A stretch of 64,000 bases of DNA from Ctena decussata (taxonomy: Eukaryota > Mollusca > Bivalvia > Lucinida > Lucinidae). The notes under the pieces are model-generated. The model was not told the origin of the DNA and searched no databases. It was given only the letters and a program-made list of their open reading frames with translations. This document shows, piece after piece, positions 3,101 through 63,605 of the stretch. The position numbers and the translations under genes were made by a program. The stretch is taken from contig OZ022512.1 of the NCBI GenBank assembly GCA_963989385.1, forward strand, positions 27,177,899 through 27,241,898. The letters are read 5' to 3'. The number at the start of each line of letters is the position of its first letter. Positions within the stretch are counted from its first letter, which is position 1.

Positions 3101-6100
3101 TCAAAATTTTGCATACCACTTTTTCAAATAAGGTTCTTGATACTGTTCTCATTTCTTCTATTACTTGTCAAAGTTCAAATTAATTTACTGTTCCTACAAA
3201 AATATCGCATTTGAACTGGTACAAAAAATATTCTGATTATATAATACCTGAGCAGGAAATGTGTTCAAGAAACTGAGCAGTTCAAACTCTGGAGCAGTGA
3301 TGGTCCTAAAGGCATCTCGTATCACCCCATGAAGAGACTTCATCTGTTCTCTCAGCAAGTCACCAAGCCATACTTCTACATTACCCCTTGCATACACAGG
3401 TGTCTCCAGCTACAAAACCCAATTGAACAGCTTTCATTTTTTTTTATCATGCCTTTGCTCTGAACTTCTATTTATCACTGCATTAACACTATCACAAGAA
3501 TTCCGCGGAATGCGGTGTCTCGCCTGCTGGCGCTTTGCCACAAAAACAGAGCTAAATCAGCAAAGATGTATGCATGAACCAAGTTTCTTGGCTCTAGCCC
3601 TTACAGTTTCTGAGAAAACTTGACAAACAATTGCAAAGTCAGTCAACCACAAAATGTTGGTAAAGACTCAATATTGATGATGACTTGAGTTCTCTTCCAG
3701 ATGAATACATGAACCAAGTATCATGGCTCTAGCCCTTAAAGTTTCTGAGAAAGACCTAAACGCTAGAACTTGACCAAAAAATTGCAAAGTCAGTCAACCG
3801 TAAAATGTTGGTCAAGACTCGATCTTAATGATGGCTTTGAGATTTACTCTTCGAGATGTATGCATGAACCAAGTTTCATGGCTCTAGCACTTATAGTTTC
3901 TGAGAAAATTACCTAAACGCGAAAACTCGACAAAATATTGCAAAGTCAGTCAACCGTAAAATGTAGGTCAAGACTCAATATTGATGATGGTTTTGAGATT
4001 CACTCTTCCAGATGTACGAATGAACCAAGTTTCATGGCCTTAGCCCCTTTAGTTTCTGAGAAAATGACCTAAACCCTAAAAACTTGACAAAAAATGCAAA
4101 GTCAGTCAACCGTAAAATCTAGGTCAAGACTCAATATTGATGATGACTTTGAGATCTACTCTTCCAGATGTATGCATGACCCACGTTTCATGGCTCTAGC
4201 CCTTATAGTTTCTGAAAAAAAGACCTAAACCCGAAAACTCGACAAAAAAATGCGAAGTCAGTCAACCGTAAACTGTAGGTCAAGACTCAACATTGATGAT
4301 TGCTTTCAGCTGTACTCTTCCAGATGTATGCATGACCCAAGCTTCATGGCTCTAGCCCTTAAAGTTTCTAAGAAAATGACCTAAACCCGAAAACGCGACA
4401 AAAATTGCGAAGTCAGTCAACCGTAAAATGTAGGTCAAGACTCAACATTGATGATGGTTTTCAGTTGTACTCTTCCAGATGTATGCATGTCCCAAGTTTC
4501 ATGGCTCTAGCCCTTATAGCTTCTGAGATAATGACCTAAACGCCAAACATCGACAAAGTTTACGCCGCCGACGACGACGACGACACCGGAAAAGCAATAC
4601 ATATGTCTCGCCTCTGCTTCGCAGGCGAGACAAAAACTGCTCACACTTCAAATTTGGTCAATTGCAGCTACACCCTTAACTTAACACATAGGTGGAAATG
4701 ACTATAACTTTTACATGATGATCATGCATGTATATAGTCAGAAAAAAAATCACAAAAAAATAAAATTTCAGTGAGCCAGTTGAAAACGATACATGTATGA
4801 ATATTTGACTCAAAATTCTGAAGTACATAAACCTCTGTATAGCAAACCTATAATGCATATGAAGTTCAGACAGCATTCACATACCATATGCCAATGGGGC
4901 ATTTTATTTTCAGAAAAGGGGGTGTTACGCAAGATCTGAAGGCTAAAAATCCATCTCATGCCAAACTGCTTGAAATAACCTCTGTGTGACTCAAATTTGC
5001 ACAGTATGAGGTCAAAATATGACTGTTTTGCATAAAGCCAGAAACTCAAATCCTCAGAAATACCTTATCAAGAATATTTATCAAGGATTTTCTGACTGAA
5101 TTTATGCAGCTTTGGTCAGTCAAGATACACTTATTGTCAGACAAGATAGACATGTTCAAAGAAAAAGTGGAGGGGCATTTACTAGAGAGACTGTTTATTA
5201 GGATTCATACAGAATTATAATTACCATAATTTTCTCTCCTTCCCTAGATATGACAGCCATCATTCTGTCATAGTCTTTCTCATGGAAATCCACTTCATTC
5301 ACATTTTCGAACACTCCCAGCAGATGTGCCTAGAATAAGTATATAATAAAAGACATAAGCCGCAACACGACAAAACCAACAAAGTGGCTTGTGCCTCAAG
5401 TGAAGACTCAAATCAGCCTGGGCATCCACTCAGTCTGATCACACTCTTCGCTAAGCATTTAAAGGGTATCTAAGGGTCTAAGCTATCTCCATGCAGACAG
5501 CGAAGACTCTTATCAGACTGGGCAGATGCCCAGGCTGATCTGAGTCTGCTGTGGATGCACAACCACTTTGTTACTTTTGTCATGTCGCGGCTCATTTATT
5601 CTCCAGTATATGGAAAACACCCTGTGTTCCACTATTTTGCGCCTGTGTATGTGAGACAAGGTCTTACCTTTGATGAACATCACTTTTCATGTTTTGTTGC
5701 ATAATGAGATATGGCACCCAATAAAAAAGAATGTGTGTCTCTTAGTCTAAACATGTGAAAACCCCAGTCTCCTATTCCAAGACCAGCCATTTCACCTCTG
5801 CAGTCTGATTTGGGCTTCCATAGGGTTATCAATAAAATATAAAAGCCTTCTTAAAATATTATTTCTGAAGGTGGTCTGTATATCCATTGTATGAATATAC
5901 AATGCCTTTCTTTCTCCATTTAACATGTTATTCCTTGTAAAGGTTTTTGTCCTGTAATACAAGTATTTGAAATCACAATCGCAAAGACAAGATTACATTA
6001 TCTTTTTTTAAAAAGAAACAGGGAAAAACTACTAAGCATAACTCCACAACTACTGGTAAAACACATTCATTAACAAGAGGCCCAAATGGGCCTGATAACG

Positions 6101-63300: not shown

Positions 63301-63605
63301 TGTCCTTTGACTGTATATTTGTTTTAAGTTTCATGAAATTCAGTCCAGTGGTTACCCAGTTATGGCTGATTTTATTGATTTTAAAACAATTCAAGGGCAA
63401 TAACTCCTGCATTACTGAAGCCAGTCTGATGAAACTTGACGTGCATCAGCCGGTTATAGTAATATATATTTAAGTTTCATGAAATTCCGTTCAGTGGTTA
63501 CTTAGTTATGGCTCCGGACGGACAGACAGACGGAAGGACGGACGGAAGGATGGACAGACATGGAGAAACCTATATCCCTCCGCCTTTGGCGGGGGATAAT
63601 AAAAA
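60339..63605 (+). mobile_element. Family M hairpin/TIR element (3.3 kb, upstream of exon 1)
   Basis: ACAAGC, hairpin AAATTC-AGT-GAATTT, arm ATATCCCCTGCCAAAGG. Core of 170-190 bp units with AAGTTTCATGAAATTCC and TTACTTAGTTATGGCT. GGACGGACAGACAGACGG tract. 3' hairpin CCGCC-TTT-GGCGG, then GGGATAATAAAAA. The 5' hairpin is nearly the family J hairpin. Interrupted at 60422-61260. Confidence 0.75.
60422..61260. mobile_element. Mariner-type non-autonomous element, 839 bp, TA duplication
   Basis: Ends CAGTCGAACCTGTG and its inverse, with TA at 60420-60421 and 61261-61262. Same end type as 21341-21519. No transposase recognised. Confidence 0.8.

Follow-up and report, generated by a model that had tools for sequence, protein, structure and literature searches.

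A 64,000-nucleotide stretch of the genome of the bivalve Ctena decussata (contig OZ022512.1, positions 27,177,899 to 27,241,898, forward strand; hereafter the window) contains a dense set of interspersed elements. We interpret them as eight families of non-autonomous Helentron/Helitron2 rolling-circle transposons (HINEs, of the DINE-1/pearl kind), whose insertions lie mostly in the introns of one dynein heavy chain gene, and we give this reading a probability of roughly 0.93. The anatomy, the families, the lack of a long coding region, and the borders at one empty site were observed directly. The class is already known; the elements are new HINE families and not a new class. The 15 elements with defined limits occupy 23,527 nt, which is 37% of the window.

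Bao and Jurka (2013) described Helitron2 elements with two hairpins, asymmetric inverted repeats of 8-15 bp, and a T at the 5′ end. The 5′ arm pairs with bases downstream of it as the 5′ hairpin, and the 3′ arm lies upstream of the 3′ hairpin (PMC3627910). When our elements are reverse-complemented, the order is a T-run, an arm of 9-13 nt, an imperfect hairpin that uses the arm, a GTC-rich stretch, tandem repeats, the inverse arm, a second hairpin, and CTTGT. The arms are asymmetric and within the 8-15 bp of Helitron2, one by the 5′ end and the other subterminal at the 3′ end. They are exact over 9-13 bp in 11 of the 15 elements and imperfect in 23415, 60339, and 31129 (elements are named by their first coordinate), while 49286 is cut off. 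A 5′ hairpin involving the 5′ arm is present in 12 of the 15, with only an inner stem predicted in 54967, and a 3′ hairpin lies downstream of the 3′ arm near the end at 14 of 16 ends. As in HINE and pearl elements, a GTC microsatellite near the 5′ end is combined with central tandem repeats. In 12 of the 13 elements longer than 170 nt, the first 170 nt are richer in GTC than the remainder, and arrays with a period above 100 were detected in nine of the 15 with Tandem Repeats Finder (TRF). The elements are listed below, with the strand given in Helentron orientation (T-run first, CTTGT last).

3494-4635, minus strand: element, own family; 12-bp arms; 156-bp tandem repeats.
6073-8061, minus strand: element, family A; 11-bp arms; 274/144/343-bp repeats; interior 95.6% identical to that of 32687.
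9134-12145, minus strand: element, family B; 11-bp arms; 163-168-bp repeats.
13081-14227, plus strand: element, family C, the sole one reversed; 13-bp arms; 179-bp repeats; interior 94% identical to that of 25972.
14300-14462, minus strand: 163-bp element with a family C 5′ end and a diverged 3′ end.
15749-16695, minus strand: element, family E; 12-bp arms; has a paralogous empty site.
17492-17575, plus strand: paralogous empty site of 15749; flanks contiguous, with 3 nt between them.
23415-23832, minus strand: element, own family; imperfect arms; C-GTA-G 5′ loop.
25972-27099, minus strand: element, family C; 13-bp arms; 178-bp repeats.
28727-29688, minus strand: element, own family; 12-bp arms; 158-bp repeats; no 5′ hairpin.
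31129-31260, minus strand: 132-bp element with a family C-like 5′ end; 3′ palindrome missing.
32687-34665, minus strand: element, family A; 11-bp arms.
39313-41603, minus strand: element with a family B 5′ end and a different 3′ end; ACAAGT leader; 145- and 177-bp repeats.
47702-48480, minus strand: decayed family A copy; alignable only over its left end and 48066-48475; right border not defined.
49286-50217, minus strand: element, family G; 5′ end cut off inside the hairpin.
54967-58984, minus strand: element, family E by its ends; 4 kb; may hold other insertions.
60339-63605, minus strand: element, family G; 151-bp repeats; imperfect arms.

Both strands were scanned for the leader ACAAG(A/C), a following hairpin, and a distant inverse arm; damaged or variant copies were added by their arms and by eye. 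In total, 16 left ends were obtained, with the leader on the plus strand in 15 and on the minus strand in one (13081-14227). A hairpin (stem of at least 4 bp, loop of 2-6 nt) starts 0-3 nt past ACAAG at 14 of the 16 left ends versus 16 of 118 other ACAAGH sites, and a stem of at least 5 bp is found at 9 of 16 versus 9 of 118; these contrasts are somewhat flattering because the ends were gathered partly via the leader and hairpin, although 31129 and 47702 entered without a hairpin. The ACAAGA/ACAAGC-type ends with an adjoining hairpin reported in the first-pass annotation were thus borne out, with ACAAGT as the leader of 39313. The hairpin letters that it gave are also correct, except that GCTGTC-CCC-TGACAGC is actually GCTGTC-CCCT-GACAGC. 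Its description of the opposite end, an inverse arm after a hairpin with a TTC/TAC-like loop and then A's, applies to most elements but not to 28727 (no hairpin), 15749 (a very weak one), or 49286 (cut off).

ACAAG, hairpins, and arms might co-occur by chance in A/T-rich, repeat-laden DNA. The full pattern, defined as ACAAG(A/C/T), a hairpin, an arm of 9 bp or more whose inverse is no more than 4.5 kb away, and then A's, has 13 matches on both strands. Two of these, 20971 (plus) and 18538 (minus), were judged accidental, with A/T-rich arms unlike those of any family. However, 100 dinucleotide shuffles gave a mean of 1.8 matches and a maximum of 6, two family pairs are 94-96% identical through their interiors, and an empty site was found for 15749. 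A chance origin of the whole set is scarcely conceivable and is already refuted. The control 5-mers (19 other arrangements) gave 0-4 matches; CAAGA, which overlaps ACAAGA, gave 6.

The first-pass annotation named Helentron/Helitron2 and pearl/DINE-like elements as the nearest class. This is right, as the reversed layout is the published plan. The asymmetric layout that it described, with an outer hairpin on one side and an inner one on the other, is literally correct, but the elements had been read backwards, and this asymmetry is what defines the known class. It appears because the published Helitron2/HINE plan was read in reverse: the hairpin outside the supposed 5′ arm is the ordinary Helentron 3′ palindrome, and the hairpin inside the supposed 3′ arm is the Helitron2 5′ hairpin (5′ arm plus the following bases). 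A new transposon class, with ACAAGA and the outer hairpin at its 5′ end and the inner hairpin at its 3′ end, would have exactly this layout in that direction. However, reversal yields the published plan throughout, including the T-run, the GTC stretch near the 5′ end, and the position of the palindrome, and the reversed-sense 5′ end is the better conserved one in three comparisons described below. A new class is therefore very unlikely. Canonical Helitron1 (5′-TC, CTRR-3′, insertion between A and T) was also rejected, as the ends are a T-run and CTTGT, with a T after the 3′ end.

To search for empty sites in the window, the flanks of each of the 15 elements were joined. The flanks of 15749 match 17492-17575 (85 nt, 75% identity, E = 1.3e-9); the two parts (left, 45 nt; right, 36 nt) can also be aligned separately, and they are contiguous save for 3 nt. 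Therefore, the element is bordered by the leader and the A-run, and a target-site duplication is not visible. The first-pass annotation had allowed that the leaders might lie off the true borders, which is not the case at this one paralogous site. CTTGT is followed by T in 12 of 15 cases, compared with 35 of 119 background sites (binomial, 7e-5), and TT or more is found at the 5′ end in 14 of 15, the exception being the cut-off 49286. A T-rich target with no target-site duplication, as seen at this one empty site, is also a feature of Helitron2.

Miniature cut-and-paste elements (MITEs) with short inverted repeats were the original classing of pearl elements. The inverted arms of 9-13 bp in 11 of the 15 would suit such elements, as would the lack of a transposase match in a Pfam search, which covered all 58 stop-free open reading frames (ORFs) of at least 90 aa in the window, shorter ORFs being outside it. 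MITEs are recognized by mirror-image terminal repeats and a target-site duplication. Here, only one side has its arm in a subterminal position, the two ends do not mirror each other, and the single empty site shows no visible duplication. We consider MITEs extremely improbable.

The two ends of the elements differ in conservation in three cases. Compared with family C, 14300 is 97-98% identical over the first 60 nt and 77% over the last 60 nt, and 31129 is about 85-88% and 63-65% identical, respectively. The corresponding values for 39313 and 9134 are 87% and 63%. In the 3′ hairpin of 14300, the outer pair is swapped on both sides (G-C to C-G), and the innermost pair is lost. In 31129, the 3′ palindrome is absent and the arm almost adjoins the CTTGT tail, which looks like a deletion of the hairpin. 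In Helraiser, the left end is required and the right end is not strictly required. A swapped stem in its 3′ hairpin leaves about 90% activity, while an altered loop and closing pair act like a deleted hairpin (PMC4778049, PMC5876387). By analogy with Helraiser, the three cases fit a fixed starting 5′ end and a replaceable terminating 3′ end.

Several observations weigh against the assignment to Helentron/Helitron2. The 5′ hairpin is absent from 28727 and very weak in 15749. GTC enrichment is lacking in 39313 and marginal in 54967. A significant empty site was found for only one of the 15 flank pairs, with 75% identity and 3 nt at the junction; the second match, for 39313, was not significant (E = 2.3), and the other 13 pairs gave none. 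The A-run of the 15749 site could conceal a duplication of one or two A's, and the base after CTTGT is not T in three of 15. The 5′ and 3′ ends of the other pairs are about equally conserved (6073 and 32687, 92/97%; 25972 and 13081/14227, 98/95%; 15749 and 54967, 78/72%). Finally, none of the 58 ORFs matched Rep or helicase, and no autonomous partner was seen in the window. A window without such a match is as expected of non-autonomous members.

The interiors were compared all-versus-all after trimming 60 nt from each end (45 nt for 14300, none for 31129). Only four long relationships were found: 6073 with 32687 (95.6%), 13081/14227 with 25972 (94%), 49286 with 60339 (74.5%), and 15749 with 54967 (68.5% over 327 nt). 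The remaining matches span 22-41 nt, and three of them cross groups (6073 with 9134, 60339 with 6073, and 28727 with 39313). The family C 5′ end is common to 14300 and 31129, and the 9134 5′ end is common to 39313. Three elements (3494, 23415, and 28727) are ungrouped; 23415 bears some resemblance to 49286/60339 in its last 60 nt (0.72 by a gapped measure that gives 0.52-0.73 for different-group pairs). CTTGT is invariant in all 14 aligned 3′ ends, largely because ACAAG was the search seed (39313 was found via its other end). In the alignment of 13 of the 5′ ends, TT and CC columns are shared. At least eight sequence-unrelated families had been proposed. Eight groups with unrelated interiors are indeed present, but "unrelated" is too strong for the ends, where a C/G-rich arm core recurs.

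Three further details concern individual copies. The decayed family A copy at 47702 is interrupted at about 47737-47981 by an inverted-repeat element with arms of at least 16 bp (GGCCCCGAGGTTATAA...). The truncation of 49286-50217, judged against 60339, falls in the 5′ hairpin loop. A fragment like the family B 5′ end (34693-34740) adjoins element 32687.

The Pfam search matched dynein heavy chain domains in nine of the 58 ORFs, all on the minus strand and colinear: DHC_N1 at 54.7, 51.1, and 49.3 kb, the coiled-coil at 25.6 kb, DHC_N2 at 19.8, 19.3, and 12.6 kb, and AAA_6 at 1.8 and 0.9 kb. Three of these matches are below the Pfam cut-offs (the coiled-coil, E = 0.0057; 1509-1790; and 19318-19755).

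593-54731, minus strand: span of the exons detected for the host gene, an axonemal-type dynein heavy chain gene; nine ORFs identified with Pfam; more than 54 kb, with introns filled by elements.

Fourteen of the 16 elements lie between detected exons, and 54967 and 60339 lie upstream of the first one. PDB and Pfam searches with the ORF at 59695-59973 gave nothing; the first exons are therefore unproven. An exact-match scan of viral contigs with two end patterns gave no matches.

The elements run with the dynein gene, on the minus strand, in 15 of 16 cases (two-sided binomial, 0.0005, including 47702 and 49286) and in 13 of the 14 cases between detected exons. We also built models of the ends, both of which score sequence only: the 5′-end model, made from 13 ends, came out without base pairs, and the 3′-end model was built without structure. 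The 5′-end model has 14 matches with E < 0.01, 13 on the minus strand and one on the plus strand (two-sided binomial, 0.0018), and the next match has an E of 0.81. These comprise the 13 ends used and 31129, which was outside the model-building set and was still matched with an E of 0.0013. Four possible causes of the bias were rejected: poly-A signals (37 sense versus 36 antisense within elements), T-tracts (TT 4477 on the gene strand versus 4027, outside elements), acceptor-like sites (strict, 0 and 0; loose, 43 sense versus 10 antisense, which is the wrong direction), and donor-like sites (10 versus 15). Nothing apt on Helitron orientation bias was found among the literature matches listed. 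Seen at one locus, the bias may be an accident.

The most likely mechanism can be sketched by analogy with Helraiser and Helitron2. RepHel supplied in trans would nick the top strand at the 5′ T-run end, its helicase would peel the nicked strand off, and the 3′ hairpin just before CTTGT would signal the stop. Pairing of the 5′ and 3′ arms would compete with the 5′ hairpin and help to close the end, and the copy would enter between two T's without a target-site duplication. Nicking, strand choice, termination, and circles are inferred from the published work on those two systems. Bao and Jurka reported compensatory changes and proposed that, as replication ends, pairing of the arms breaks up the 5′ hairpin (PMC3627910). 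In our calculations, the simple duplex energy of arm-arm pairing beats the 5′ hairpin in all 13 intact elements. End-to-end pairing (at least 9 pairs) is preferred in 10 of the 13 by a two-strand fold, and in only 8 of the 13 by a joined-end fold. In view of these two folds, arm-arm pairing as the always more stable state was rejected, and we claim only that the two predicted states are close to bistable.

The 5′ hairpin has a recurrent loop. Its stem is interrupted by a bulge or internal loop in 11 of the 12 predicted hairpins (54967, inner stem only). On the top strand, the apical loop is C-GNA-G in seven of the 15 elements (3494, 6073, 9134, 23415, 31129, 32687, and 39313) and C-GAAA-G in three (13081/14227, 14300, and 25972). 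It is T-TGAAG-A in 54967 and C-AAA-G in 60339, and 15749, 28727, and 49286 have no real 5′ hairpin.

4596-4636, 8017-8064, and 41560-41606, minus strand: examples of 5′ ends with these loops.

A rival stem of equal length in 9134 would have the loop AAG; the fold prediction picks GTA. At the family level, four have C-GNA-G, one has C-GAAA-G, and three have neither, as copies within a family are not independent. Among background hairpins outside the elements (stem of at least 5), C-GNA-G was found in 0 and GNA in 8 of 158 triloop readings, and C-GNNA-G in 1 of 181 tetraloop readings; these readings cover both strands, so that the independent number is about half, and the inner stem of 3494, at 4 bp, is below the threshold of 5. 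In related ends, the middle base of the loop differs (GTA in 9134, GAA in 39313), while G and A are kept. The 3′ hairpin loops gave no comparable pattern. The TTC/TAC loops noted earlier are the complement of the GNA loop. The accompanying suggestion that structure, not sequence, is recognised agrees with the variation of the stems among families but not with the 5′ loop, which is C-GNA-G or C-GAAA-G in five of the eight families.

The 5′ end of Drosophila INE-1 probably also has a C-GTA-G loop. DNA hairpins of the d(GCGAAGC) type have been described as extraordinarily stable. In vitro, the top strand is the only one that the Helraiser transposase cleaves and joins (PMC4778049, PMC5876387); the loop is therefore carried by the strand that would be expected. 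By the energy model, the GNA loop and its complement score alike, and there is little difference between the two strands when whole 5′ ends are folded. These equal energies lend no support to the strand argument; its basis is the stability published for hairpins of the d(GCGAAGC) type. The 5′ ends of the fungal elements FoHeli1 and FoHeli2 also have a GNA-type loop, CC-GAA-GG. A search of the accessible literature text gave no match for Helitron with "triloop", and Helitron with "GNA" matched only one paper, on lectins; figures and supplements were outside this search, and novelty is not claimed. We tentatively suggest, as a possibility rather than a probability, that the signal constant across Helitron2/Helentron families is a DNA mini-hairpin with a C-GNA-G (or GAAA) loop and an imperfect, variable stem at the 5′ end of the transferred top strand. 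It might be an ancient recognition and timing device, present here and in fungal Helitron2. With this loop, the strand would fold immediately on being peeled off, and the stem bulge would let the 3′ arm reopen the hairpin, ending replication. If the GNA loop holds genome-wide, it would provide a concrete recognition hypothesis for Helentrons.

Other repeats are also present in the window. A separate dispersed repeat of about 100-210 nt occurs at 1013-1224, 5389-5600, 20821-20920, 28154-28365, and 38898-38997. Its copies are 68-96% identical to a reference copy, and inverted ends are found around 28134-28331. A further inverted-repeat element, with arms of at least 16 bp (GGGCCCAGTTGTTCAA), is located at 43573-43831.

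The window is a dense natural sample, with 15 elements in 64 kb, eight groups with a common end architecture, and one filled/empty pair. It makes testable which parts are kept (the 5′ loop in five of eight families and the C/G-rich arm core) and which change (stems, 3′ loop, and interior). The bench results on the Helraiser 3′ hairpin, which tolerated a new stem but not a new loop and closing pair, run parallel to this. The 5′ loop and the orientation bias are leads beyond the ordinary.

Among known systems, Helitron1 and Helraiser resemble these elements in having a 3′ hairpin near the end as a terminator, and in Helraiser the left end is essential and the top strand is used. They differ in their 5′-TC, CTRR-3′, and target between A and T, and they have neither inverted terminal arms nor a 5′ hairpin (PMC4778049, PMC5876387). 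Helitron2 shares the hairpins, the arms, and the 5′ T; however, the group was defined with autonomous members that code for RepHel, which was found in none of the ORFs searched here. In autonomous Helentrons, an endonuclease accompanies RepHel. Some Helitron2 elements carry an inverted coding direction (PMC3627910). FoHeli1 and FoHeli2 of Fusarium oxysporum have a GAA loop closed by C-G, asymmetric inverted repeats, and hairpins at both ends, as here, but they are elements of 5-6 kb and their 3′ end is ATATTTT, not CTTGT. In the accounts consulted, the evidence on Helentron/Helitron2 is sequence-based, apart from joined-end polymerase chain reaction (PCR) products in Fusarium (PMC5148889).

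The DINE-1/HINE elements of Drosophila and mite, which are Helentrons, are like ours in their subterminal inverted repeats (subTIRs), the 5′ inverted repeat nested in the subTIR, the 3′ stem-loop, and the T-rich target with no target-site duplication. In the mite, about 38-60 bp separate the 3′ subTIRs from the 3′ end (PMC4067079), whereas the distance is about 23 nt for the family C 3′ arm. Vojvoda Zeljko et al. described 11 Cg_HINE elements in the Crassostrea gigas genome, which insert at oligo-T without a target-site duplication; the accessible text of that account does not mention a CTTGT tail or a GNA loop, as found here. The Cg_HINE plan consists of a 5′ subTIR of 11-12 bp, a complementary inverted repeat, a GTCY-type microsatellite, satellite-like central repeats, a 3′ subTIR, and a 3′ palindrome (PMC7492417). 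Compared by layout, not by end letters, the elements of C. decussata have the same plan.

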